Source: Lolium rigidum (taxonomy: Eukaryota > Streptophyta > Magnoliopsida > Poales > Poaceae). From it: DNA of 64,000 nt. The notes below the pieces were generated by a model, which was given only the letters and a program-made list of their open reading frames with translations, made no database searches and was not told the DNA's origin. Position 1 is the first letter of the stretch; each line of letters opens with the position of its first letter. This document shows, piece after piece, positions 4,956 to 57,039 of the stretch. The stretch lies in NCBI RefSeq assembly GCF_022539505.1, contig NC_061510.1:95558292-95622291 (forward strand). Direction: 5' to 3'. A program made the translations under genes and the position numbers.

Positions 4956-5055
4956 NNNNNNNNNNNNNNNNNNNNNNNNNNNNNNNNNNNNNNNNNNNNN
5001 NNNNNNNNNNNNNNNNNNNNNNNNNNNNNNNNNNNNNNNNNNNNNNNNNNNNNNN
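4956..5055. other. Assembly gap, 100 N
   Basis: Exactly 100 N, a conventional placeholder for a gap of unknown size. The left flank is a truncated LTR and the right flank is unrelated sequence, so the join is not evidence of adjacency. Open frames drawn across it are artefacts. Confidence 0.98.
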
Positions 5056-6440: not shown

Positions 6441-6910
6441 ATTTTTGGTGCATTTTTCCCTTTACTCGTCTGAGCAATTGTATCTGTACTCGTTCGTGTG
6501 CGCGACTATACCTGTCTTATGTGGACGACTGTACATGTACTCGTTCGTGTCCGCGACTATACCCGTCTCGTGTGCGCAACTGTACTTACTCGTGTGCGAC
6601 TGTACCTACCAGTGTACGCGACTGTACCTACCCGTGTGGGCGACTGCACTTGTACTAGTTTGTGTGCGCCATTGTACTTACTTACTCGTGTGCGCGACTG
6701 CCCGTGTGCGCGATTGTACTTGTACTCGTTCGTGTGCGCCACTGTACTTACACGTGTGCGCGACTGTACCTGCCCGTGTGCACGACTGTACCTACCCGTG
6801 TACGCGACTGTGCCTACCCGTATGCGCGACTGTACTTGTACTCGTTCGTGTGCGCCACTGTACTTACTCGTGTGTGCACGACTGTACCTACCCGTTGGTA
6901 GAACTGAACC
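6441..6910. repeat. Degenerate minisatellite, ~22-bp unit
   Basis: Imperfect copies of a unit near GTGTGCGCGACTGTACCTAC, with a variant containing GTACTCGTTCGTG. The array keeps frames open on both strands for 80-160 codons, giving Cys/Tyr/Leu/Val repeats. These look like by-products of the repeat rather than genes. Single-base drift between units is high. Confidence 0.75.
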
Positions 6911-7730: not shown

Positions 7731-10461
7731 TTATCTGTACTCCTCTCGAAGGCAAATGTAACTGCTGCCTTTGGTCCTATCCACTTTGGCAATTTTCTTC
7801 AAAATTTCAGTAAAATGTTGCTTCTCCTGCAGTACATGGATAACAAGACATCAAAATCCTGTTCATGCATAGGGCAGATATAACAATATACAGCAGGGCG
7901 GATGCACTGAAAGACATACAAGTCGGCAATAAGATGAATCCAAGGTATGAAGCCAGTATGCTTTACCTCTGGAGTTCTGAATCTAGGCCTAAATCTGGAG
8001 ACAAGATCTCGCGGTGCCACAGGAGCAATCGCAATAAGTACTCTCATGATTTCCTCCTCTGTTATTGTAGATTTGTTAGTGTCACTTCCTGCCAAAGCAA
8101 ATGCCTCTCGAAGGCAAATGTAACTGATGCCTTTGGTCTTATCCAGTTTGGCAAATTTCTTCACAATTTTAAAAAAATGTTGCTTGTCCTGCAGTACATG
8201 GATAACAAAACAAGACATCAAAATCATGTGCATGCATAGGGCACATACGGCAGGGTGCATGCACTGAAAGAGATACAAGTCGGTAATAAGATGAATCCAA
8301 GGTGTGAAGTAGTATGAAAAGCAAAAGACCATGCAGTTATTAAGAACGCAATATTTCAGAGCAAAACGCATCACAAAGCCAGTATGATTTACCTCTGGAG
8401 TTCTGAGTCTAGGCCTAAATCTGGAGGCAAAATCATGTATTGCCACAGGAGCAGTCGCAATAAGTACTCTCCTGACTTCCTCCTCTGTTACTGTAGATGT
8501 GTTGGTCACACTTCCTGCTGAAGCAAATGCTTTTGAAATAGGTTGCAATGAAGAGAGTGGCTCCTCCTTGACACCCAATGCCTTTGTTTCCTGTACCACA
8601 TTTAGGACGATCAGAGAAAGAATTTCATGCAATGTCACAATTATATGATTAAATACTAAATTTCACATGACATACAAGTTCTTTCTTTGGCTTCTTCAGC
8701 GCTGGGCTATTAGATGTTTTTGAATCATCACCCCCTGATCTTCTTTTCTGATTGGAGCTAGGTACATGTGGAGTGCAAATAGCAAGTCCAGTTGCTGTTA
8801 GTTTAGCAGGGTTGTTTTCCTGTGGTTCACATTTGCATTCATCTTTCAGTTTTGGAGCAAGTACTGGAGATGGTGACTCATCTTCCTGCTGAATAAGAGT
8901 AGACATGAAAGCAAGTCAACAAAACTGCTTGTGCACCTGCAACTCGTGAACTTTAAATCATACACAAGTTTAAGAGGAATGGTGATCATTACATCAGTAT
9001 CTTCTTGGTCATCGTCATCGGATTCACTTTGTCCATCCGCAGGACGGAGCAGCTTTTTTAGTTCCTTACCGGACTTGCTCAGGCTACCCACTCCTTGTTC
9101 ATCCTCATCATCATCCTACAGAGCATTGCAATCAGAAATGTATTTATAAACAATTCTGGTGAAGGCAGTACTGTCTGTAGATTTAGTAAATAGTATACTT
9201 GCAGCATTTTGGCAAATTTCTTCACATTTTTTAAAAAATGTTGCTTGTCCTGCAGTACATGGATAACAAAACAAGACATCAAAATCATGTGCATGCATAG
9301 GGCACATACGGCAGGGTGCATGCACTGAAAGAGATACAAGTCGGTAATAAGATGAATCCAAGGTGTGAAGTAGTATGAAAAGCAAAAGACCATGCAGTTA
9401 TTAAGAACACAATATTTCAGAGCAAAACGCATCACAAAGCCAGTATGCTTTACCTCTGGAGTTCTGAGTCTAGGCCTAAATCTGGAGACAAAATCATGTA
9501 TTGCCACAGGAGCAGTCTCAATAAGTACTCTCCTGATTTCCTCCTCTGTTACTGTGGATGTGTTAGTGTCACTTCCTGCCGAAGCAAATGCCTCTCGACG
9601 GCAAATATAACTGCTGCCTTTGATCTTATCCACTTTGGCAATTTTCTTCACAATTTCAGAAAAATGTTGCCTGTCCTGCAGTACATGGATAACAAGACAT
9701 CAAAATCCTGTGCATGCACTGAAAGACATACAAGTCTGGTAATAAGATGAATCCAAAGGTATGTAGTATGAAAAGAAAAAAAAATGCAGTCATTAAGAAC
9801 ACGATATCTCAGAGCAAAACGAACCATAAAGCTAGTATGCTTTACCTCTGGAGTTCTGAGTCTGAGATTAAATCTGGAGGCAAAATCTTGCGGTGCCACA
9901 GGAGCAATCGCAAAAAGTACTCTCCTGATTTCCTCCTCTGTTACTGTAGATGTGTTTGTGTCACTTCCTGCTGTAGCAAATGCCTCTCGAAGGTAAATGT
10001 AGCTGCTGCCATTGGTCTTACCCACTCTTGTTATTTTCGTCACGATTTCAGAAAAATGTTTCTTGTCCTGCAGTACGAGGATAACAAGATATCAAAATTC
10101 TGTGCATGCATTGACAGGGCACATATAACAATATGTCGGCAAAGTGCATGCACTGAAAGACATACAAGTCGGTACTAAGATGACTCCATACTATGAACTA
10201 GTATGAAAAGCAAAAAAAAATACAGTTATTAAGAACACAATATTTCAGAGCAAAACGCATTGCAAAGCCACTATGCTTTACCTCTGGAGTTCTGAGTCTA
10301 GGCCTAAATCTGGAGACAAAATCTTGCATTGCCACAGGAGCAAACGCAATAAGTACTCTTGTGATTTCCTCCTCTGTTACTGTAGATGTGTTTGTGTCAA
10401 ATCCATCTAGAGGAAATATGTTTAAAACAGGCTGCTCCTTGATACCCAATGTCTTAGATTC
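7731..10461 (-). repeat. Tandem array of RAP74 winged-helix exons
   Basis: The normal gene builds its C-terminal winged helix from two exons: one ending TVTEEEVRRVL...RLRTPE and a last exon with KKITKVDKTKGSSYIYLREEY. Here three hybrid exons of exactly 222 nt (10067-9846, 9675-9454, 8188-7967) each encode the second half of one winged helix followed by the first half of the next. A fourth, truncated copy starts at 9249. Exon spacing is about 360-430 bp and the introns between copies are near-identical (words such as ACATACAAGTCGGTA and GATGAATCCAAGG), pointing to unequal exchange. Every module is phase 0/0, so copy number can change without frameshift. The terminal exon 7826-7731 keeps the normal stop. 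Confidence 0.85.
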
Positions 10462-13145
10462 CTGTACCACATATAGAAAATCCGAGAAAGAATTTAATGT
10501 GATGATACAGTTATAGGATTATAAACCTTAAACTTCACATGTTCAGCATGAAAATAGAAGAGAAGACATACAGGTTCAATCTTTGGCTTCTTCAGCGCTG
10601 CACCATTAGATGTTTTTGAATCATCACCCACTGATCCCCTTTTCCGATTGGAGCTAGGTGCATCTGGAGTGTAAATAGCAAGTCCAGTTGTTGTTAGTTT
10701 AGCAGGGTTGTTTTCCTGTGGTTCACATTTGCATTCATCTTTCAGTTTTGGAGCAAGTACTGGAGATGGCGACTCATCTTCCTGCTGAATAACAGTAAAC
10801 ATGAAAGCAAATCAACGAAACTGCTTGTGCACCTGCAACTCATGAACTTTAAATCACACACAAGTTTTAAGAGGAGTGGTGTTCACTACATTAGTGTCTT
10901 CTTGGTCATCGTCATCAGATTCACTTTGTCCATCAGCACGACGGAGAAGTTTTATAAGTTCCTTACCGGACTTGCTCAGGCCACCCACTCCTTGTTCATC
11001 CTCGTCATCATCCTACAGAGCAGAGCATTGCAATCAAAGATGTATTTATCAACAATTCTGATGAAGGCAACACCACCTGTAGATTTAGTAAGTATACTTG
11101 CAGCATTTTGCAGCAGGCCTAGCATATTAACTGATAATGTGAGCACAAGCATGTGCACTTCTTTCTACCTGCTTAATTTCTTGTGGAGCAGGGTTTTCAG
11201 TATCAGATAAATCAGGTCTTACCTCTGGGTCAACATAAGGATTCTCATCATCATCACTGAAGGCCTCTTCATGCTCCCAATCATCACCTGCTAAAGAGCA
11301 GGTTCCAGCAAAGACTATTGAGGACTGTGCATATGTATAAGCAAGTATATTTCTTTGCCCTGATTAACTAGGAATGAGAACGGAAAGTATGTGCAACTTG
11401 TTGACACTGCATTCCATGTTCAAAAATCACTTTACGAATCCTATAGCATTTTTGAAAGTATCATGCACATGATATACCACGACTTTTATATTCATGAATA
11501 CTTTCACATTTTTTTGGAGCTTGGAAATTGGTTTCCGAATAACAGGGTGCACTGGTAACCAGTTGGTCACAATCCGCTGTGGGATGAATGAACAGCTTTC
11601 GAATACCAAGAATAATAATCAGCATGTCCTATATTTAAGAATTCTCAAAATGTTAACAGGTATCGATAGTATTTGATGAGCATACCTATCTCAATTTCAG
11701 CATCAAAATCAAAGTCTTCTATCTCATCTTCCTCCTCATCATCATCCACGCCCTTAGTAGAAAGCCCATGGGCATTTCTCCTTGGAGCTCTGGCTTCTTC
11801 GTCCTCCTCCCCTTTGTCAGGGTGATACCCATCCTTGTTCGTATTTTCTTTCTTGGATCGGACCTTGTCATTTGCTTCATCAAGGTTTTTGAACTCGGAA
11901 CCAAAGGCACCAGGTCCATGTGTAGCCAACTTCATCATCCATGGTCCATACCCAGTTGTGCTGCTTCTCCTTCTTTTCATCTTCTCTTCAGCTTCTTCCA
12001 AAGTCAGCTGTTTGTATTGTGCGATTTTACTGAAGTTATACCTGAGAAGACAAAAGAGACTGTAACTAAGATAACACTTTCTTGATGCCTTCAAGCACAT
12101 AATTACTAACAGGGAAATACCTCTTGAAGCTTATCTCTTGCAGGTATCTATGTTTTCGTGGTGATTATTGTTGATATGAAATGGGGAAAATAAGGAGAGA
12201 AGCAAACTTTTGAGTACCAGGAACCAACAGGAACAGCATGGAACTCCTTGCCGTGCATCATCAGCAAATAATATGTAGGGGTAGCAGACTGTGATGCCTC
12301 GAGTTGGCTTTGGTACCGATGTTCCCCTGTTCCATCTTCCAATATCCATGGCTTTCTGCTGTAGTATTTCTCCTGCTTTGTTGAACATGTGTGACGGACG
12401 ATTAACAGGATTACTCGAACAGAACATTTGTAGCAAAATTATCAGGGCTAAAGTAACAATCAACGGCAGAAGGCTCTCCTTGCAGTTACATTTGCCATCA
12501 GATGAGCAAAATAAACTCCACTTGTAGCAAGTATTGCAGAAATTTCGACACGGATTCCTTATTGCGTGTTGGATTAGCACCGAAAATTTCGACAGCATAT
12601 CTGGTTGGACCATAAACAGTAACGATGATCACATCCATGATTTGGAGCCAGTACCCGCATAGTGGCAGTAAGCTGTCGTCCTTCGGGGCCATCCTTACGA
12701 AGAGACCAGTGGTTCCCCGCAATCTTCTTCTCCGAGAAGGGCGGTAAACTGGTGGCGAACTTGCCTATCCAGACGGCCTTCTCCGCGGTGGTATCCACCC
12801 GCACATTGTACTCCTGCGCGTGCCGTCGGAACAGCAAATCAGTCACGGGCACCGAAACCCAAAACCGCCGAGCGCGCTGGCTGCGGCGGCGGCGGCGGCG
12901 GCGGCAACGGCATTGGTCGCGGAACTGAAAACCTAGGGGGCCGTCGCGGGAGGGGCAGGCTGTACCCGGATGAGGTTGGTGACGGGGGCGGCGCAGACGG
13001 CGCAGCGCGTGCGGGCTTGCGCCATGGCCTTGCCGCAGGAGCTGCAGACGGTGGCGTGGCGGCAGGCCGTGCCGTAGAGGTCGGAGGCCTTGCCGCAGGC
13101 GTCGCACGCCGGCTTCAGCACCAGGCTAGCGGTGCCGGGGGCCAT
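7731..13145 (-). CDS. TFIIF alpha subunit (RAP74) paralog with expanded winged-helix array
   Basis: Large subunit of the RNA polymerase II initiation and elongation factor TFIIF, nuclear. Proposed exons (minus strand): 13145-12966, 12813-12655, 12372-12218, 12041-11686, 11287-11169, 11012-10890, 10784-10572, 10461-10282, 10067-9846, 9675-9454, 9249-9199 (doubtful), 9115-8993, 8888-8676, 8590-8393, 8188-7967, 7826-7731. All have GT-AG borders and join in frame to 943 aa (926 without the doubtful exon). The plant RAP74 family is about 540 aa. Residues 1-60 hold the plant-type Cys-rich N-terminus (C14, C17, C28, C34, C37, C48, C51). Exons 2-4 hold the RAP30-binding region (WSLRKDGPEGR, KPWILEDGTG, YYLLMMHGKEFHAVP, QYKQLTLEEAEEKM). 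Exons 4-7 are acidic or charged (LSKSGKELIKLL). Then come repeated winged-helix exons and a second set of exons 6-8. The start is chosen from the MAPGTASLVLKPACDACG homology and a good ATG context. Exon borders are inferred from splice consensus and from the intact paralog. Whether every repeated exon is spliced in is unknown, and the long form may be untranslated. Confidence 0.8.
8993..9115 (-). other. Second copy of RAP74 exon 6 (123 nt)
   Basis: Encodes 41 residues including DDDEDEQGVGSLSKSGKELK and ESDDDDQEDTD, nearly identical to exon 6 at 11012-10890 and to 17366-17244 of the paralog. Acceptor TGTAG and donor GTAATG are kept. With copies of exon 7 (8888-8676, 71 codons) and exon 8 (8590-8393, 66 codons) it forms an internal second 3' half of the gene. 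These copies resemble the intact paralog's exons closely (exon 8 copy 66 codons, as in the paralog, against 60 in the upstream exon 10461-10282). Confidence 0.8.
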
Positions 13146-27770: not shown

Positions 27771-27879
27771 CTCGATTGTTTCGACGATCCGGCCGAGGGC
27801 TAAAATAAGAAAGAGAGGCGCGCGCGTTAGTACACACATATTTATTCAAATCGGTGAGTTTGTATCACCAGAGGCTCAA

Positions 27880-30703
27880 TGTATATATATATACCTCGGC
27901 GCCGGAGGTGGTTGCTACTTCCAACTGAAGATTATCGTCGTTTATCGACGTTCCTTCGGCACCATCTTGCTGACCATGCCCTTCATCTTCACCCTCAAAG
28001 TTCCGATAAGAATCGATATCATCTTCTTCTTGTCCGGTCGGCACATATAGAACATCGCCTTTTATGATGCCGAAGATTTGTTCTTCAGCGTCCGGATCAT
28101 AGTTGTCCATAATCGGGTCAGCTCTATCGTCCGCCATATGTCGATCCCGAAAACATGTAGTCAAAACCGTGTGGTGTGCTTCGGTCGGAGAATGGCCGTC
28201 CATACATATCATTGATTTCCTTCCGATCGTGCCTTTTCCACTTAGTCTCCCCTCGTGCCGCGATTGAGGAAGACCAATCGGCTTAAGGTCAGGAACAAAG
28301 TCAACACAAAACTCAATTACCTCCTCATTTCCATAGCCCTTGGCGATGCTTCCTTCTGGCCTAGCACGGTTACGAACATATTTCTTTAATACTCCCATGA
28401 ACCTCTCGAAGGAGAACATATTGTGTAGAAATACAGGACCGAGAATGGAAATCTCATCGACTAGGTGAACCAGGAGGTGCGTCATAATATTGAAGAAGGA
28501 TGGCGGGAACACCAACTCGAAATCGACAAGACATTGGATCACATCGTTCCGTAACCGTGGTAGAACTTCCGGATTGATTACCTTCGAGAGATTGCATTGA
28601 GGAATGCACATATCTTCACAATGGCTACTCGAACATTTTCCGGCAGAGAGCCCCTCAAAGCAATCGGAAGCAATTGCGTCATAATCACGTGGCGGTCGTG
28701 AGACTTCAGGTTTTGGAACTTTTTCTCCGCCATGTTTATTATTCCCTTTATATTGGACGAGAATCCTGACGGGACCTTCATACTCGCTCAGCATTCAAAA
28801 AAGATGACCTTCTCTTCTTTGGTCGGAGCGTAGCCGGCACGACCTTGAAACCGTTCCGGATGCCGGTCATCGTGGTCTTTCAAACTTTGTTGGTCCTGCC
28901 GTGCTTCCTTTGTATCATTTGACTTCCCATACACGCCCAAGAAGCTTAGGATGTTCACGCAAATATTCTTCGTAACGTGCATCACGTCGATTGCAGAGCG
29001 GACTTCTAGGACTTTCCAATATTCTAGTTCTCAGAATATAGATTTCTTCTTCCACATGGCTACGTGCCCGTCAGCTCCCTTCGGAACTGATTGTCCGCCA
29101 GGACCCTTTCCAAAGATGACTTTCAAATCCTTGACCATATCAAATACCTCAGCACCAGGTAGTGTTCCGCAGGCTTCGGCCGGTGATCTGCCTTGCCGTT
29201 GTAATGCTTGCCTTTCTTTCTATCTGGATGACCTTTCGGAAGAAATCGACGATGCCCAAGGTACACGTTCTTCTTACAATTTGGCAAATGTACACTTTCG
29301 GCCTCATGTAAGCAGTGCGTGCATGCATTGTATCCCTTATTTGACGGTCCCGAAAGGTTACTAAGAGCAGGCCAATCGTTGATGGTTACGAAAAGCAACG
29401 CTCGTAGGTCAAATTCCTCTTCTTTGTGCTCATCCCACACACGGACACCAGGTCTGCCCCACAGCCTGTAAAAGCTCATCAACTAATGGCCTTAGGTACA
29501 CATCGATGTCGTTGCCGGGTTGCTTCGGACCTTGGATGAGCACTCGGCATCATAATGAACTTCCGCTTCATGCACAACCAAGGAGGAAGGTTGTAGATGC
29601 ATAGAGTCACGGGCCAGGTGCTATGGCTGGAGCTCGCTCGCCAAAAGGATTCATGCCATCTCGTACTTAGACCAAATCTTATGTTCCTTGCGTCGCCTGC
29701 AAAATCTTTGAACTCTCTCGTCGATCTTTCTCCATTGCGTTCCATCTCGCGGGGTGTCTCAACTCCCCGTCCGACTTACGGTCCTCTTTGTGTCATCGCA
29801 ACAACTTGGCATGCTATTTGTTCCCGAACAGACGTTTCAACCGTGGTATTATAGGAGCATACCACATCACCTTGGCGGGAACCCTCTTCCCGGGTTTCTC
29901 GGCCCTCAACATCGTCACCAGGGTCATCGCCTCCGATCTTATAACACAATGCGAGTGCATACCGGGCATTCATTCAAATTCTCGTATTCACCGCGGTAGA
30001 GGATGCGGCCGTTGATGCATGCATGCATCTTCGTAACCTCTAAACCTAGAGGGCAGACAACCTTCTTTGCTTCGTACGTACCGGCGGGCAACCGGTTATT
30101 CTTTGGAAACATATTCTTCAACATTTTCAGCAAGTTTTCAAATGCTGAGTCAGCTACACCTGCCCGTGCCTTCCATTTCAAGCAAATCCAGTGGTGCAGC
30201 CCAGCTTTTTCAGACCATCATCGCATCCGGGGTACAGCCGCCTTCCCGTGATCCTCTAACATGCGATCCAAATTCTCCCTCTCCTTTTCAGTTTCGCAGC
30301 GTCTCCGTGCATCAGCAATGGTCCGACCAAGATCATCAACGGGATCCTCTTCTTCACCTTCCCCTTCACCTTCCCCTTCACCTTCAAAGATCCTCCATGA
30401 AAGTATCACCGAAATGAGAAAGATAGCTTTCATCGATGAAATCATCCCCTTCTTCATCTTCTTCCATTATAACCCCTCTTTCTCCATGCTTGGTCCAACA
30501 ATTATAGCTTGGCATGAAACCGTGCCGAGCAGGTGCCTGTGACCATCTCTTGAGGAAGAGTAACCCTTCCGATTCTTACACTTAACACATGGACAGATAA
30601 CAAAACCCCCCTGCTTGTTCGCATTAGCCACTACGAGGAAATCTTTCAAACCCGTACTGAACTCGCCGGAGAGTCGGTTACCGTACATCCATTGCCGATT
30701 CAT
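27880..30703 (-). pseudogene. CACTA TNP2-type transposase, decayed
   Basis: N-terminal transposase-associated domain at 30703-30467 (MNRQWMYGNRLSGEF, CPCVKCKNRKGYSS). Next are DPVVDDLG-type acidic sequence (about 30330), KMLKNMFPKNNRLPAGTYEA with CPLGLEVTKMHAC (about 30150-30000), HSTWPVTLCIYNLPPWLCMK (about 29620-29580) and a TNP2 core GVRVWDEHKEEEFDLRALLF with NDWPALSNLSG (29440-29340). Then VTKNICVNILSFLGVYGKSN (about 28970), KVPSGFSSNIKGIINMAEKK (28780) and a DUF4218-type end FPPSFFNIMTHLLVHLVDEI with KYVRNRARPEGSIAKGYG (28530-28330). Correct frames change at several points (near 29650, 28790 and 28585), and the usual long C-terminal part after the RHEGRLSGKG block is missing or rearranged. 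It is therefore a pseudogene. Confidence 0.85.
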
Positions 30704-32106: not shown

Positions 32107-32249
32107 GAAGTTGCATGAGCGTGAGCGAGTGAGCGTGAGCGAGTGAGCGTGAGTGAGGAGCGCAGGGCGCCCCTCCGCGCGGCCGTCGTGCGCCGCCCGG
32201 CGCCGGCGGTTTTCCTTCCCTTCTTGTCCTCCCCTTTGAGTTCTCCGTC

Positions 32250-34922
32250 ATGGCCAGCAGGGTCATCCTCTCCGACTCCGACCGGAGCGACGACTCCGTG
32301 TCCTCCCGTGCCCCCCCGCCGCCTCCCCTTCGCTCTCTGGTCGTCGCTCCGGCGAGCCACCAGCTGGGGTCGAGGGGCTGGGACGCGGGAGCTGGGTCGA
32401 GCCGTCCCAGGACGTCGCCGGTTGCTGCGCGTTCGGAAGCTGCGGAAGACGGTGGGCGCCCCTGGCGCTTGCAGGAGTCGCGCCGTGCGCGGTTTTCGCG
32501 TCGCGCTCAGGCCCGCCCTGCTTCTGACCGCCGTATCCTCCCCGCATCCAGACCGCCTGGCGTCAACGCCTCCAGGATCCCGTCTGCGCTGCACGGCCGC
32601 TGCTACAACTGCGGCGAGGACGGCCACATCTCCGCGCAGTGCCACAACGACACCCTGTGCGTGCGCTGCGGTGGCTCGGCGCACACGTCCAAGGACTGCA
32701 AGCGGCCCCGCAGCCCTCCGGAGGCCTCTCCTCCGTTGCAGGCGCCGCCGCCTCTTCGTCCGGTCGTGGCAGCCGCTGGTGGCTCCGCCCGGCGCGCCCC
32801 GGCCCTGCCAGGTGCTGCGCCTGTCCGTTCTTGGCGCGACGTGGTGTCCTCTGGGGAGGACGGCGCTGCAGGGGACGCCTCCGCCTCCGATGCGGTCGGC
32901 TTCTCTGCACCCTTTGCGCCGCCCTCTCCTTCGTCCTCTGCCACGGCTGGTGCGCCGCGCGTCGTTGCCCCTGACAGGCCGGATGTTTGCTACGTCCAGC
33001 CGTCTCTGAGCATGGTGCAGCTCGAAGCGGATCTGGATCGTGCAGTCATGGTGTCGGTGGTGGGAGCTCGGATCCAGATGACCCCCGAGATCGCGGCGGC
33101 GGAGATCCGTGCCTACCTGAACCTGCCGGCGAGCGCCTTCTCCATCAGGCCGTTCGAACCGGCAGATTTTCTGCTGCTTTGCGCCTCTGTGGAGGTGAGA
33201 GATGCCATCGTCCATCAACAATCTGTGGGAACATCGCAGTTCACGCTCCACTTGGAGCCGTGGACGAGGCAGGTTGGCGCAGCACTGCGGGAAGCTCCGT
33301 TCCTCGCCGAGCTCGAGATCACCGGCATCCCTGGGCATGCGTGGGCTGAATCCACGGCGAGCAAGCTCCTGGAGGGTGCTGGGGTTATCGACGAGGTCGA
33401 TCCTGCGACGGCGTCGCGCAGCGACATGTCTTGCTTCCGCCTCTCCGTCTGGACGCATGATATTGCGGCCATTCCGGCGCTGCGCTGGCTGGCCGTGCCG
33501 GAGCCGGGCTCGGGCCTAAGGCTGCAGGTGGCCACTGGCCGCCGCAGGCCACGATCGGAATCGCCCCGTATGCTTTGGTACAGGGTGCGTTTCTGGGTCG
33601 CTCGCTGGCTTGTGGGTGGGCCACCGTCGTCTGGAAGTGATGGTGGAGACCAGCGTGGAGGTGCTACGGGCGCCTCGGGCTCGGGCGGTGGCGGCGCACC
33701 ACCTGGTGAGCCTGCCCGACGTCGACGACGACGGCGTGCGCCCAGGCGTCGGCGGGGGCGTCGCGCGTCTGGCCCTGAGGATGCAGTGCTCACCGTCGCT
33801 TCGCCTTTGGAGGAGCTTGGACGGCGCCAAGCGGTGGAGCCTGCGTCCCTTGGCAGGTGGCGGCCGGAGTCTTCGCCTGCGGCAACGGTGACCGGCGGAG
33901 GACCTAGGGCTGACGTCAGTGCTGTAGCAACACGGTCTGACCGCGTGGGCCCGGGCAGTAGGAGAGAGGGCACGCCTCACGGGCCGCAGCACGAGGCTCG
34001 TGACCTGCACAGCGCGTGCTCCTCTACACGCGAGATCCCGCAGCAAACCGTGCTGGCTCCCGCGGCGAGAGCTGACCCGTGTTTGGAGGCTTCCCCCACA
34101 ACTTGCTGCTCGGACTCCTGTAGCGCAAGTGCGGTGGGTTCCCCTGGTTGTCTGCAAGGAGACAGAGACGCCCTAGTTGCCGCCGCAGCGTTCCTGTCGG
34201 GCCGCAGGGCCAGCCCCGAGGTGGATGCGGCTTCTCCGGCCTTCCTCTCCGGGCGCTCACGAGGGAGCAGCGTGGACCGCGCAGCCACGTCGCACTGGTC
34301 TCCGCTCCAGTCCCCGATGTCAGGCCCGCAGGCCGCTGTGTCCGGCGCCAACGGCCATGCATGCGGACCCGCCTCCCATGCGTTTCCCAATGGCCATGCA
34401 AGCGGACCCACCTCCCCTGCTACGCTTACGCGTGTGGTGGCCTCACATGGGGTGGCCTCTGCGAACAGCGCTTCCCCACCGTTGGATGGCCATGCAGCGG
34501 GTCACGCAGCGCCTGCAGCTGCAGCAACCGAGGAGGCCGACGTGCACACGCTCACTGAACTTTTGCGCCAATTCAAACAGCGTTTGGAGGATCCGCTCCT
34601 AGCCCTGCCGGACCCCAAGCTTGTCCGGCGCCGCTTGTTCCCGCTTGTCCATCAGTCCACGCGCCGCAGCAGCCGTCTCGCGGCCAAAGGAAAGGGAACG
34701 TCCATGTCCACCATCAAGCATGCTCAGCGAGTGCTCATGCAAAAGCTTGGTGTCTGCGGGGAGGAAGAAAAGTTGACGCCAACGCAGCTGAAGGAATACG
34801 CTGAGATTTTCGCGTCACCTCTTGGTCCGGAGCAGCTCGCCGCCATCGCTGCGCTCTTCGGCTTGGGCTCTATGGACGGTGCCAACATTGACGACGCGGT
34901 GGTCGCGGCAAGCGCCTGTTAG
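32250..34922 (+). CDS. LINE ORF1 protein, gag-like with two CCHC knuckles
   Basis: 890 aa. A Pro/Ser/Arg-rich N-terminus (1-115) precedes two zinc knuckles, CYNCGEDGHISAQC and CVRCGGSAHTSKDC (about 119-153). A Pro/Ala-rich linker follows, then a DUF4283-like folded region at about 250-420 (PDVCYVQPSLSMVQLEADLD, ASAFSIRPFEPADFLLLCAS, WTRQVGAALREAPFLAELEI, ITGIPGHAWAESTASKLLEG). After a second low-complexity region with an Arg-rich stretch, the C-terminus (about 770-890) has LLRQFKQRLEDPLL and a predicted helical part. ORF1 proteins bind element RNA. The start is the first ATG of the long frame. Several long antisense open frames across it arise from GC-rich codon use and are not genes. Confidence 0.85.
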   Translation: MASRVILSDSDRSDDSVSSRAPPPPPLRSLVVAPASHQLGSRGWDAGAGSSRPRTSPVAARSEAAEDGGRPWRLQESRRARFSRRAQARPASDRRILPASRPPGVNASRIPSALHGRCYNCGEDGHISAQCHNDTLCVRCGGSAHTSKDCKRPRSPPEASPPLQAPPPLRPVVAAAGGSARRAPALPGAAPVRSWRDVVSSGEDGAAGDASASDAVGFSAPFAPPSPSSSATAGAPRVVAPDRPDVCYVQPSLSMVQLEADLDRAVMVSVVGARIQMTPEIAAAEIRAYLNLPASAFSIRPFEPADFLLLCASVEVRDAIVHQQSVGTSQFTLHLEPWTRQVGAALREAPFLAELEITGIPGHAWAESTASKLLEGAGVIDEVDPATASRSDMSCFRLSVWTHDIAAIPALRWLAVPEPGSGLRLQVATGRRRPRSESPRMLWYRVRFWVARWLVGGPPSSGSDGGDQRGGATGASGSGGGGAPPGEPARRRRRRRAPRRRRGRRASGPEDAVLTVASPLEELGRRQAVEPASLGRWRPESSPAATVTGGGPRADVSAVATRSDRVGPGSRREGTPHGPQHEARDLHSACSSTREIPQQTVLAPAARADPCLEASPTTCCSDSCSASAVGSPGCLQGDRDALVAAAAFLSGRRASPEVDAASPAFLSGRSRGSSVDRAATSHWSPLQSPMSGPQAAVSGANGHACGPASHAFPNGHASGPTSPATLTRVVASHGVASANSASPPLDGHAAGHAAPAAAATEEADVHTLTELLRQFKQRLEDPLLALPDPKLVRRRLFPLVHQSTRRSSRLAAKGKGTSMSTIKHAQRVLMQKLGVCGEEEKLTPTQLKEYAEIFASPLGPEQLAAIAALFGLGSMDGANIDDAVVAASAC

Positions 34923-34957
34923 CGCCTGTCCTTGGTGGTCCTTGTGGGTTGTCCTCA

Positions 34958-37900
34958 ATGGATGTGCAAAATTTACGCCTTGCCATTTGGAACGCGAGGG
35001 GCCTCAACAACCCTGCGCGTCGCACTGCGGTGCGTGTAGCGGTAGCTGATGCGATGGCATCCGTGGTGTGTGTATCGGAGTCAAAACTCCACCATGTATC
35101 CGCCTTTGATATAGTGGAATGCTTTGGGCCCCGCTTCGACGGGTTCGCGTACTTGCCTGCGTTGGGTACCGCCGGAGGTGTGATCGTTGCATGGGCGTCG
35201 CAAGACGTGACCGTGCTACGCAGACGGGTAGATTCTTTTTCTGTCTCCGTTGAGATCTCACAGGCCAATGGGCCGGCCTGGTGGCTTACGGCGGTGTATG
35301 GACCAACCATCGCCAACTTGCGGCCTCTCTTCCTCGATGAGATGAGAGCCATTCGTGCGGCATGCGCCGGTCCGTGGGCGATCGCCGGAGACTTTAACAT
35401 GATTGTCTCGGCCGCGGACAAGAGCACTCCCGTCCTTGATCGTCGTGCGATGGGGCAATTTCGCCGCTGCCTCAATGAGTTGGAGCTCAAGGAATCCACG
35501 CTCATCGGGCGCAAGTACACATGGAGTAACGAGCGCTCATCTCCGACGCTTGTCAAGCTGGATAGATGGTTCGCCTCGGTTGACTGGGATGAGGCTTTCC
35601 CAGACGCGTCCCTCACGGCGATGTCCTCCTCCCTCTCGGACCATTGTCCCATCCTCATGACCACGGCAGACGAGTTGGCAGTGGGAAAGCGCTTCCGCTT
35701 CGAAAGGTTCTGGTTGTCGCTCGACGGCTTCCAGGAAGAGGTTCAAACCTTGTGGAACTGCAACGCAGCGGGGGGAGTGCCAACTGATCCTTTGCGGAGG
35801 CTTGGGTTTAAGTTGCTACGTGTTAGCCACGGCTTGTTAAGGTGGAGCCAGCGCCGCGTAGGTTCGGTTCGCGATAGCATCCTCCTTGCCAATGAGGTGA
35901 TATTGCGCTTGGACGTGGCGCAAGATAGCCGGCAGCTCTCCCCTGCCGAGCATTGGTTGCGGCGTAGCCTCAAACTCAAGGTCCTTGGCCTTGCATTCCT
36001 ACAACGCACCATCGCGAGGCAGAGGGCGAGGGTGGCTGGTTTGAAGGAAGGGGACGCCTCTTCGCAATTCTTCCGTATCCTCGCAACGTCCCGCAAGCAG
36101 CATCGCTCATCCATTGCCTTGCGGCACGGCGATCGCATGGCTGCTGACCTCGATGGAAAGGTCTCTCTGGCCACAGATTACTATATGGACTTGCTGGGGA
36201 AGCCGCAGCCTCGGGAGCATGATATCTCCCTCGAGGCGGCTGGCCTGTCGCCGGTGGATCTCTCCGCGCTCGAGGGCCGTTTTACTGAGGACGAGGTTTG
36301 GGAGGCAATCCGTGCCATGCCGCCGAACAAGTCACCTGGCCCAGACGGCTTCACTTCTGAGTTCTACCGCCATTGCTGGCCCATTATCAAGGTGGATGTG
36401 ATGGCAGCTGTGCATGCCCTCTGGCTTGGCAGGGACCAGTTCTTTGGTGATCTTAATGGGGCTCTCATCACCCTGCTCCCTAAGAAGGACGGCGCAGTGG
36501 ACCTACAGGATTTTCGGCCCATTAGTCTTGTCCACAGTTTCGCGCGTCTCTTCACCAAGGTTTTGGCACGGAGGCTCGCACCGCGGATGGCTGAGCTTGT
36601 AGATACAAACCAAACGGCTTTCATCCGTGGCAGATGCATACAGGACAACTACCTCTTAGTCAAGGAGTCTGCGCGGTTGCTCCACCGTAAGAAGATTCCC
36701 TCGCTGCTGCTCAAGATCGACATCGCCAAGGCGTTTGACAGCATTTCCTGGCCTTTCCTCATCAGCGTCCTTCGGCAGCGAGGCTTTGGCCATAGGTGGA
36801 TCGGCTGGATTACCCTACTGCTGCGATCGGCGACCACGAGGGTGCTGGTCAACGGCTTCGCCGGTAGCGCGTTCAGCCATGGCCGTGGATTGCGGCAAGG
36901 GGACCCAATATCCCCTTTGCTGTTCGTCATCGCCATGGATGTCCTCTCCTCCATGTTTCGAGCTGCAGAGCAGGCTGGGGCCCTGACGGATCTCTCCTCT
37001 GTTGGGCTGCGCCACCGCCTATCTCTTTACGCCGATGATGTCGTCATCTTCGCTAGGCCGTGCACGGTTGAGTTGGCAGCAATATGGGCCGTGCTGGAGT
37101 GTTTTGGTGGTGCATCCGGGCTGAGAGCCAATAACACCAAGAGCACGGCAGCTCCCATCAGGTGCCCTCCGGAAGTCTTGGATGAGATTGAGCCGGCCTT
37201 GCCTTGCCCTTTGACAGAACTACCGTGCCGGTATCTAGGCCTACCTCTCTCCATCGGCAAGCCCAGGAAAGCAGAGCTCCACGCCGCCATCGACAAACTC
37301 GCAGATCAGCTCCCCTTTTGGAAGGCACGGTTGCTCTCCCGTGAAGGTCGCCTCGTCTACGTCCAAGCGGTCTTGGGGGCGTCTGTCGTCTATCAGCTAC
37401 TCGCTCTTGACCTTGATCCATGGTTCTTCAAGGCGGTGGACAAAATCCGTCGGGGTTTTCTTTGGGACGGCTCCGATGACGCAAAAGGGGGGTGTTGCCC
37501 GGTGGCTTGGAGATTAGTTTGCCAGCCCAAGGGCCTTGGAGGGTTGGGGCTGCACGACCTGCGTCGCATGAACACAGCGTTGCGCACGAGGTGGCTGTGG
37601 TTCAACAAAATTGGCGCCCCGAAACCTTGGGCGGGCCTTGATGTCAACGTCGGCAAGGACTGCGTTGCGCTTTTCAACGCCTCCGTGCGTATTCAGCTGG
37701 GGAACGGGGAGTCCAGCCTCTTTTGGCAGGACCCCTGGATCGGAGGGCTTACGGCGGAGGCAATAGCACCTGACCTCCTTCCCCTCGTGAGGCCGGCTGT
37801 GCGTCGCCGGCGTTCGGTTCGGGACGGCCTCCTCGACAACTTTTGGGCCACTGATATCTCAGGAGCTCTATCGATGCCGGTGGTGGTCCAATACTTGCGA

Positions 37901-38524
37901 TTGTGGGCTGCTGTGGCGGCCGTACCGTTCCAGGGGCATGGCGATGCGGGCGTGGACAAGGTCTCTTGGAAGTGGCGAGGCGATGGCCAATTCTCCTCCA
38001 AAACAGCATACCGCATGTTGTTTCATGGCACCGTCGGCCTCACCGGAGCCAATTTGGTTTGGAACTCCTTTGGTCCTCTCAAATTCAAGATGCACGCTTG
38101 GCTCGCTTTGCGGAGGCGATGTTGGACGGCTGATCGGCGTCTCCGGAGGGGGCTGCCGTCCCATACACTTTGCCCGCTATGCGGTGCCGCGGACGAGACC
38201 CTAGATCACCTCTCCTTGCAATGCCATTTCGCTCGAGAGGTCTGGTCTGGCCTCATCGCCCGGTTGGGTCTCCCTGACATCCTGCCATGGCACGGCGCCA
38301 CCATCAACGACTGGTGGTCTAGCGCTTCTGGCCTTTTCCTCCGAGCTGACCGCAGGAAAGCCAACTCCATCATCATGCTAACTCTTCGGTACCTCTGGTT
38401 GGAGCGCAATGCTAGGGTTTTTGAGGGACACCGATCTACCGCCGCCGCGACCTTGAGCTTGATCATGGATGAGTGGCGGGCTTGGTTAGATTGTAGAGGT
38501 GGGGTTGCGAGAGTAGTGCAATAG
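34958..38524 (+). CDS. LINE ORF2: APE endonuclease, reverse transcriptase, zf-RVT
   Basis: 1,188 aa from the ATG at 34958 (MDVQNLRLAIWNARGLNN). The endonuclease (about 1-235) shows WNARGLN, SESKL, AIAGDFNMI (about 141-149), KLDRWFAS and SDHCPI (about 227-232). The reverse transcriptase (about 430-720) shows NKSPGPDGFTSEFY, LLPKKDGAVDLQDFRPISLV, NQTAFIRGRCIQDN, KIDIAKAFDSISW, GLRQGDPISPLLF and the catalytic SLYADDV, with Tyr at residue 691 (37028). A C-terminal zf-RVT region (about 1030-1100) shows WNSFGPLKFKMHAWLALRRR and HTLCPLCGAADETLDHLSLQC. All catalytic signatures are intact and there is no internal stop. Nicking and target-primed reverse transcription are the family's known activities. 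Confidence 0.93.
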   Translation: MDVQNLRLAIWNARGLNNPARRTAVRVAVADAMASVVCVSESKLHHVSAFDIVECFGPRFDGFAYLPALGTAGGVIVAWASQDVTVLRRRVDSFSVSVEISQANGPAWWLTAVYGPTIANLRPLFLDEMRAIRAACAGPWAIAGDFNMIVSAADKSTPVLDRRAMGQFRRCLNELELKESTLIGRKYTWSNERSSPTLVKLDRWFASVDWDEAFPDASLTAMSSSLSDHCPILMTTADELAVGKRFRFERFWLSLDGFQEEVQTLWNCNAAGGVPTDPLRRLGFKLLRVSHGLLRWSQRRVGSVRDSILLANEVILRLDVAQDSRQLSPAEHWLRRSLKLKVLGLAFLQRTIARQRARVAGLKEGDASSQFFRILATSRKQHRSSIALRHGDRMAADLDGKVSLATDYYMDLLGKPQPREHDISLEAAGLSPVDLSALEGRFTEDEVWEAIRAMPPNKSPGPDGFTSEFYRHCWPIIKVDVMAAVHALWLGRDQFFGDLNGALITLLPKKDGAVDLQDFRPISLVHSFARLFTKVLARRLAPRMAELVDTNQTAFIRGRCIQDNYLLVKESARLLHRKKIPSLLLKIDIAKAFDSISWPFLISVLRQRGFGHRWIGWITLLLRSATTRVLVNGFAGSAFSHGRGLRQGDPISPLLFVIAMDVLSSMFRAAEQAGALTDLSSVGLRHRLSLYADDVVIFARPCTVELAAIWAVLECFGGASGLRANNTKSTAAPIRCPPEVLDEIEPALPCPLTELPCRYLGLPLSIGKPRKAELHAAIDKLADQLPFWKARLLSREGRLVYVQAVLGASVVYQLLALDLDPWFFKAVDKIRRGFLWDGSDDAKGGCCPVAWRLVCQPKGLGGLGLHDLRRMNTALRTRWLWFNKIGAPKPWAGLDVNVGKDCVALFNASVRIQLGNGESSLFWQDPWIGGLTAEAIAPDLLPLVRPAVRRRRSVRDGLLDNFWATDISGALSMPVVVQYLRLWAAVAAVPFQGHGDAGVDKVSWKWRGDGQFSSKTAYRMLFHGTVGLTGANLVWNSFGPLKFKMHAWLALRRRCWTADRRLRRGLPSHTLCPLCGAADETLDHLSLQCHFAREVWSGLIARLGLPDILPWHGATINDWWSSASGLFLRADRRKANSIIMLTLRYLWLERNARVFEGHRSTAAATLSLIMDEWRAWLDCRGGVARVVQ

Positions 38525-45283: not shown

Positions 45284-47158
45284 GAATACTGGCCAAGACA
45301 CTCCTACAGCTCTAATTTAGCAAAGATGCATGGTTAAGGAGCTTTCCTCTCCACCCAGCAGCTCTCTTGAGGATTTTATCAACAACGGGTTGTATATCCA
45401 CTTTTTCAGCTTACTATGATGAAGAGGGACCCCAAGATACTGTAGAGGGAAATCTCACATCTTACAGCTCAAAGATTGTGCAAAAACTTGTGCATCACTC
45501 TCCACCACATTAACAGGACTAGATCACATTTATGAAAATTAATACTCATCCCAGACATGTGTTCAAAACAAGCCATGATCCATTTTAGATTGATGGTAGA
45601 AGCTAATCTATTTTCTAGGAAGAGTAGAGTATCATCAGCATATTGCATAGTAATGATCCCTCCCCTCCCTAGTTCTTGCATGAGTCCAGCTATCTGTCCT
45701 CCACAAGCAGCTTTGGACAAGATTTTAGTAAAGACATCAGCCATAAAATTGAAAAGAATGGGGGAAATAGGATCCCCCTGTCTTACCCCTCTACTGGTAA
45801 GGAAGAACTGACTATTGCAGTCATTAATCCTAACCCCAACAGAACCATTATGCAAGAGACCCTCAATAATAGACATCCATTTAGGGCTAAAACCCCTCAT
45901 TTTCATCATTCTCAACAGGAAATCTCTATCCACCCTATCATAGGCTTTTTCATAATCAAGTTTAAAAATAAAAACAGACTGTCCCTTATGGACAACATCA
46001 TGAATAAGCTCATGAGCAGATACCACACTTTCAAGTATATATCTCCCCTTAATAAAAGTTTTTTGGTTAGGAGAAATAAGTTTTTCACTAACCACACCCA
46101 GCCTATTAGTGGCACATTTAGAAAAAATCTTAAAGCTGCAATTGGTCAAGGCAATAGGCCTGAACTTCTGTATAGTCACAGCATCAGCTTCCTTTGGAAT
46201 CAAAGTCAAAAGAGAAAAAATTCAATCTGAAGAAATCAAGTTTCCCCTCATTCCAATCTTTAACCATAGCCATGAAATCAGCTCTAATGAGCTCCCAAAA
46301 ATGTTGGTAAAAGAGGAAAGAAAAACCATCAGTTCCAGGGGCACCCTCCGCATAAGAGCCAAAGATAGCATCCCTAACCTCTTTTTCAGAAAAAGCAGCA
46401 TCAAGCATCTCATTGTGATCCTAGGATACCATATCCTCAGGATCCCAGAAATCATCTAACAAATCAATGTCAAGACAGGGTTCTTTACCAAAAAGGTTTT
46501 TATAGTAATTAACAGCAATGTCTAGTATACCTTTGTTGTCTTCTACAAGCCCTTCCTCACCTTGCAATTGGTAAATCTGTTTCTTCCTCCTCCTCTGATT
46601 GGCTATAGAATGAAAATAAGCAGTATTACGATCTCCTTCTAAAATGTATCTCTCTCTAGATCTTTGTCTGGCATTTATTTCTTCATTAATCCAGATTTTA
46701 GTAAGTTCAACTGAAATATTTTTCATTCTAGCTTTAGAGACAGGAGACAAGCTTTGTGTTTCAGATAAAATGTCAAGCAAGTCATACTGCAACCAAGCCC
46801 TGCTTAAGTTTCCTTTGAGCAGACTCAATGTTGGCTAACCAACTTTTTAAGACCTTCCTAGTATTCCTTATTTTAAATTGCCACCTATCCAGTGAGTTTT
46901 GGAGATGACAAGGGGCCTGCCAGAACTTGGCAACCACTTGATCAAAACCTTATACTTTAAGCCACCATTTTTCAAATCTAAATTGTTTATCATGAGGAAT
47001 TTTCAGAGCCCCAGTGTCAACAATAAGTGGGGTGTGATCACTGCCCACCCTAGGCTTAGAAGCTAGACTACTAGCAGGGAAAAGAGAATGCCAACAAGTA
47101 GAGACAAGGACTCTATCTAGTAAAGCCATAACCAGATTATCTTGGTTATTAGCCCAAG

Positions 47159-56939: not shown

Positions 56940-57039
56940 NNNNNNNNNNNNNNNNNNNNNNNNNNNNNNNNNNNNNNNNNNNNNNNNNNNNNNNNNNNNN
57001 NNNNNNNNNNNNNNNNNNNNNNNNNNNNNNNNNNNNNNN
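56940..57039. other. Assembly gap, 100 N
   Basis: Placeholder gap. The left flank is the unfinished 3' LTR and the right flank is inside a CACTA-type element whose left terminus is missing. The same LTR family borders the other gap, which suggests assembly collapse at this repeat. Confidence 0.98.

Follow-up and report, generated by a model that had tools for sequence, protein, structure and literature searches.

The minus strand of the ryegrass (Lolium rigidum) window, the whole stretch of 64,000 nucleotides that was analysed, carries two tandem TFIIF-alpha genes, P1 at 19632-16330 and P2 at 13145-7731. RAP74 normally has one C-terminal winged helix, which contacts FCP1 and TFIIB. P1, which served as comparison gene, is normal in this respect, with 9 exons, 531 aa and one winged helix. 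P2, the downstream member of the pair, has the same first seven exons as P1 followed by a multiplied 3' part and is, judged from its sequence, a variant TFIIF-alpha gene that departs in the copy number of the winged helix. Its frame is open over 941 aa if a relic micro-exon is included and over 924 aa if it is left out, in both cases with no internal stops, and it encodes four complete winged helices of the RAP74 type (A, B, D and E) and a truncated one (C). An earlier note on this DNA had proposed a product with about four such domains, and the assembled P2 indeed holds four complete ones in a single open frame. The disabled frame or splice sites by which a pseudogene is recognised were not found in the P2 of the window (no stops, no frameshifts). 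We consider that P2 is probably a coding-competent duplicate under relaxed constraint, in which the number of winged helices is in flux.

All exons of P2 lie on the minus strand. Exon e1 (12966-13145), which contains the start codon and a zinc-ribbon-like N terminus and is 97.8% identical to e1 of P1, is followed by e2 (12655-12813), e3 (12218-12372, within the N-terminal region matched by the Pfam family PF05793), e4 (11686-12041), e5 (11169-11287) and, in block 1, by the acidic exon a1 (10890-11012) and by a2 (10572-10781). After these seven shared exons, the order is whA, hybrid 1, hybrid 2, relic, a1b, a2b, whb, hybrid 3 and last exon. The exon whA (10282-10461) codes for the first half of winged helix A and is 18 nt shorter than the corresponding exon of P1, with the frame kept. 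Each of the three hybrid exons is 222 nt long and joins the second half of one winged helix, through a short linker, to the first half of the next one: hybrid 1 (9846-10067) connects A with B, hybrid 2 (9454-9675) connects B with the truncated C, and hybrid 3 (7967-8188) connects D with E. The linker between neighbouring winged helices inside a block is 12 residues long. The last exon (7731-7826) provides the second half of E and the stop codon. The exons of the array have GT-AG borders, and every exon from a1 onward is in phase 0.

The three 222-nt exons, with phase 0/0 and GT-AG borders, and the normal last exon had been predicted by the earlier note at these positions, and they were recovered there exactly. 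In two respects its picture had to be widened. The locus had been given as 7731..10461, where the array does lie, but P2 actually begins at 13145, beyond that range. Likewise, the array is real, but it is larger than described, as it also contains a second acidic copy and a relic exon. The second copy comprises the acidic exons a1 and a2 and the winged-helix first-half exon and interrupts the hybrid array at 9115-8393. Its exons a1b (8993-9115; 98.4% identical to a1 of P1 and 91.1% to a1 of P2) and a2b (8676-8885; 97.6% to a2 of P1 and 92.9% to a2 of P2) are P1-derived, and whb (8393-8590), coding for the first half of winged helix D, is mostly P1-like and has some bases in common with hybrid 2. 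The relic of a second-half exon (9199-9249), which passes into intron sequence at a breakpoint near 9205, keeps the frame whether it is used as a 51-nt micro-exon or skipped; read-through into the next intron leads to a stop.

Since every exon from a1 onward is in phase 0, the frame survives the gain, loss or skipping of copies. Splicing could, to judge from these phases, leave out any P2 exon from a1 on in frame, and this may be a reason why the array is tolerated. When whA is spliced straight to the last exon, the frame is open over 525 aa, which is the normal length. Repeats inside the P2 array match each other over 387-1547 aligned bases with 79-97% identity, far above chance. The copies of the exon halves differ mutually by 4-19%, and introns i3 and i4 at only 2 of 204 positions. 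Directly 3' of P2, degenerate direct repeats of the GTGTGCGCGACTGTAC type are present at 6479-6881. The window also contains LINE-like ORFs at 32157-38524 (+) and 45472-46221 (-), with matches to reverse transcriptase, zinc-knuckle and endonuclease, as well as an ORF with a DUF4218 match at 27868-28794 (-), which we take to be probably transposon-derived.

The assignment of P2 to TFIIF-alpha was assessed with PF05793 (TFIIF-alpha/RAP74), for which the curated cut-off is 27.1 bits. The whole P2 protein scored 423.2 bits in 5 stretches, compared to 299.2 bits for P1. Four of the five winged-helix units exceeded the cut-off (A 29.5, B 28.8, D 29.3 and E 33.3 bits, versus 37.2 bits for the domain of P1), and the truncated C, with 24.5 bits, remained below it. 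The four complete domains are 72-81% identical to that of P1 and stand together in frame, in place of the single winged helix of TFIIF-alpha. The N-terminal region, assigned by sequence to dimerisation with TFIIF-beta, reached 120.7 bits in P2 (residues 50-205) and 134.1 bits in P1; the N-terminal 207 residues of P2 are 13 bits below P1. P1 also matches the alpha chain of a solved TFIIF (1f3u_B, E 1.5e-6). A search of PDB sequences with one winged helix gave no match at E up to 10. The 4 matches obtained there with a six-unit profile, the best with E 0.19, were taken as chance, as was a weak Pfam match to DUF7740 (20.2 bits versus a cut-off of 28).

The window is part of a 413-Mb scaffold in an assembly of 2.44 Gb and 1764 contigs; the assembly statement in PMC9664059 gives 2.44 Gb and 1,764 scaffolds for the published Lolium rigidum genome. 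A protein search of this genome for TFIIF-alpha, in which 109 of 109 candidates were scored, returned 13 matches, 7 from the window pair, 4 from a second P1-P2 pair, and one each from a canonical gene on C4 and from its near-copy on C797, an unplaced 22-kb contig. The canonical protein has 533 aa and one winged helix, in which 39 of 64 residues are identical to those of P1. The C4 and C797 copies, which differ by 1.27% (100 mismatches in 7869 aligned bases, in blocks over 500 bp), are probably two haplotypes, with C797 being a haplotig.

The second P1-P2 pair is located on the same scaffold (C3:94221545-94233771), on the opposite strand and 1.34 Mb away from the window. Homology between the two loci is inverted, patchy and partly rearranged, and extends over about 36 kb of the window. 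The P1 gene of the second locus, P1K, is intact (531 aa). Between the loci, P1 introns differ by 4.2% (70/1676) and P1 exons by 1.1% (17/1596), so that the second pair is either a haplotype that has diverged strongly or a duplicate that dates further back. With an exon rate roughly one quarter that of the introns, P1 has the appearance of a gene under constraint. The second gene of this locus, P2K, has one hybrid exon (223 nt) with the same hybrid join, and two winged-helix units. Its frame is broken by five lesions, three frameshifts and two stops. Exon e3 has gained 5 nt, e4 contains two stop codons, e5 has lost 4 nt and the hybrid exon has gained 1 nt. This single-nucleotide gain falls within a stretch of A residues and might be due to a sequencing error, which is less likely for the other lesions. 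In-frame insertions of 3 nt in e1 and e2, and a change of one base at the acceptor of e5 that keeps the AG, were not counted as lesions.

The 3' units of P2K and of the window P2 are nearly identical. Introns Ki4 and i3 show no differences (0/204), and neither do the second-half part of the last exon (0/84) and the second-half part of the hybrid exon (0/84 aligned bases). Given this near-identity, the hybrid exon is very probably older than the split of the two loci, and its copy number has been altered since. The earlier note had suggested that the number of copies can vary, and such variability was found within this one genome, where the window locus has three hybrid exons and the second locus has one. 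This is what unequal exchange in phase-0 units would give, and the second locus supports, at the level of sequence, a reading in which copy number is in flux.

As to the origin of the hybrid exon, the winged helix of P1 is split by one phase-0 intron, and all three hybrids of P2 show the identical join CGAGAG/GCATTTGCT. On one side of it lies the last exon up to CGAGAG, right before the protein-ending codons, and on the other side GCATTTGCT, which comes from the central part of the exon before it. The joined points correspond to 16781 and 16342 in P1 and are about 440 bp apart, so that one tandem duplication of such size would explain the first hybrid exon. We propose that an illegitimate duplication of about 440 bp linked the last exon, at a point just ahead of its terminal codons, with the interior of the winged-helix exon that precedes it. 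The resulting 222-nt hybrid exon would bring one winged helix per copy, with phase 0 on both sides, and each further repeat would add one winged helix in phase 0. Later unequal exchange among the copies, together with the transfer of a P1 segment, would have led to A, B, the truncated C, the second acidic linker, D and E; we infer this order of events. Since joins that are in frame and free of stops result from 4876 of the 15120 possible breakpoints in the two exons (about one third), the in-frame founding is no evidence of selection.

Block 2 as a copy of block 1 was rejected, because its exons are nearer to P1. The acidic exons of block 2 show about 98% identity to P1 and 91-93% to block 1, and dS for its a1 and a2 taken together is 0.028 to P1 versus 0.156 to block 1. 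The stretch from whb to the start of hybrid 3 differs from the one that runs from hybrid 2 up to the relic at 13 of 387 positions. From the P1-like block 2 and the near-identity of these two stretches, it appears very probable that P1, P2 and the repeat units have exchanged sequence. A P1-derived segment of about 0.8 kb is found inside P2 at 8393-9204, which indicates that the tandem paralogues exchanged sequence recently.

An expressed P2 would be predicted to join TFIIF-beta through its N-terminal half, since this region matches the family profile, and the protein would carry four candidate winged-helix docking sites on short linkers, for FCP1-type CTD phosphatases such as CPL3/4 and for TFIIB. 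The C-terminal domain of RAP74 binds two FCP1 motifs independently, as stated in a passage of PMC9674830, and a passage of PMC8774115 groups Arabidopsis CPL3/4 as Fcp1 orthologues and describes the Fcp1 group with a RAP74-interacting C-terminal region. By analogy with RAP74, a four-domain TFIIF-alpha could hold or titrate CTD phosphatases, and multivalent docking by P2 would be possible.

Our preferred reading overlaps with another one, in which P2 is a dying duplicate with little or no transcription that by luck has not been hit, and the array is neutral debris of unequal exchange; this second reading alone denies P2 any remaining function, and we give it somewhat less than an even chance. 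P1, P1K and the canonical C4 gene make P2 redundant, and its counterpart P2K is broken. The winged helices also evolve with a dN/dS of about 1, the omega values being 1.12 for five units including that of P1 and 1.50 for the four units of P2; an omega of 1 fits about equally (lnL -546.20 versus -546.11) and an omega of 0.3 is worse by about 10 units, in fits that assume one tree, an assumption violated by exchange among units. With respect to the canonical residue, 21 amino-acid changes are found in P2 only and 8 in P1 only (P 0.024). In the 5' part, polarised with the canonical gene, nonsynonymous to synonymous changes are 24:10 in P2 and 9:8 in P1, with 15 changes left unpolarised. On the most recent branch, the ratio of 7:3 in P2 versus 6:9 in P1 plus P1K is not significant (P 0.23), and it becomes 19:4 versus 6:9 (P 0.013), again in the direction of decay, when P2K is pooled into P2. 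Against a dying P2, exons e1 to a2 of P1 and P2 differ by 0 indels in 1302 bp versus 20 in the 7 matching introns. In the same exons, dN/dS is 0.40, and the intron rate would predict about 3.6 stops on the P2 branch, where 0 are observed. Since the split of P2 and P2K, five disabling lesions have accumulated in P2K and none in P2, which has a probability of 1/32 under equal rates and also speaks against a dying P2, in a comparison biased by the choice of P2 for its open frame and by the lack of constraint on lesions after the first. After the founding of the array, 9 indels occurred in its introns and 0 in the winged-helix halves and linkers (counted by eye over 728 bases of intron and 780 of exon, after removal of i4 and of two pieces of exon as copies; binomial P 0.0014), a count that leaves aside the exon damage represented by the truncated relic exon and the in-frame 18-nt loss in whA. 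The array being without stops was rejected as proof of constraint (1.49 expected, P 0.23). A fair reading of these sequence comparisons is that P2 is under weak or relaxed constraint.

It is unlikely, in our opinion, that P2 is a selected multivalent TFIIF-alpha, in which additional winged helices bind CTD phosphatases with higher avidity or draw them away from normal TFIIF by titration, while positive selection diversifies the units. The retention of the frame while amino acids diverge, the omega point estimate of 1.50 among the four P2 units, four domains over the PF05793 cut-off, and the FCP1 and CPL3/4 statements cited above (PMC9674830, PMC8774115) are in line with such a function, but omega is indistinguishable from 1, the second copy P2K is broken, and amino acids change faster in P2 than in P1. 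This relaxed evolution and the broken P2K argue against a strong role for multivalency in P2. Likewise unlikely is a broader version, in which TFIIF-alpha enlarges and reduces its docking region by whole domains, with segregating or paralogous copies of 1, 2 and 4 winged helices. The extra domains would then create a multivalent TFIIF that sequesters CTD phosphatases, by capture or titration, and that diversifies through selection. Finally, the array might be an assembly artefact or a haplotype chimera in a heterozygous grass. The 100-N gaps at 4956-5055 and 56940-57039 delimit a separate contig of about 52 kb that carries the P1-P2 locus, and a related inverted locus with patchy homology over some 36 kb is found 1.34 Mb away. 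However, the copies of the exon halves are 4-19% apart, and the second locus, inside 78 kb without gaps, has the hybrid join too, as well as the shortening of intron i5, so we regard an artefact as highly improbable. The reading of P2 as a coding-competent duplicate with winged-helix copy number in flux is the one that we retain.

A series of 1, 2 and 4 winged helices in one genome would allow the number of docking sites of TFIIF, and its effect on CTD dephosphorylation, to be tested. Since the two-copy gene P2K is broken, it is usable as a copy-number record only. P2 also illustrates neatly how a domain becomes a self-contained unit, open to in-frame gain and loss, once the two exons that flank a phase-0 intron have each been broken internally. 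Should P2 be no more than a decaying duplicate, this example of an exon unit stands, and the test series of docking sites falls. A TFIIF-alpha with more than one winged helix was not found in searches of open-licence papers that covered the opening lines of abstracts, and to our knowledge no TFIIF-alpha with such an architecture has been described.

Compared to known systems, P2 has in common with plant TFIIF-alpha/RAP74, represented here by the canonical C4 gene and P1, the first exons, the N-terminal region, the acidic linker and the C-terminal winged helix. It differs from P1 (531 aa) and the canonical protein (533 aa) in its length of 924 or 941 aa, in its four complete and one truncated winged helices, and in the doubling of the acidic linker. 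Serial winged helices exist in other TFIIF-like or initiation factors, such as Pol I A49 and TFIIE-beta, where they form old two-domain units. In contrast, the four complete domains of P2 are copies with 72-81% identity to the domain of P1, on 12-residue linkers within blocks. Internal tandem duplication of domains through symmetric-phase exons is also known, with phase-0 units being gained or lost without frameshift. In P2, however, the unit is a hybrid exon that arose from breakpoints inside two exons, and the borders of domains and exons are offset by half a domain.
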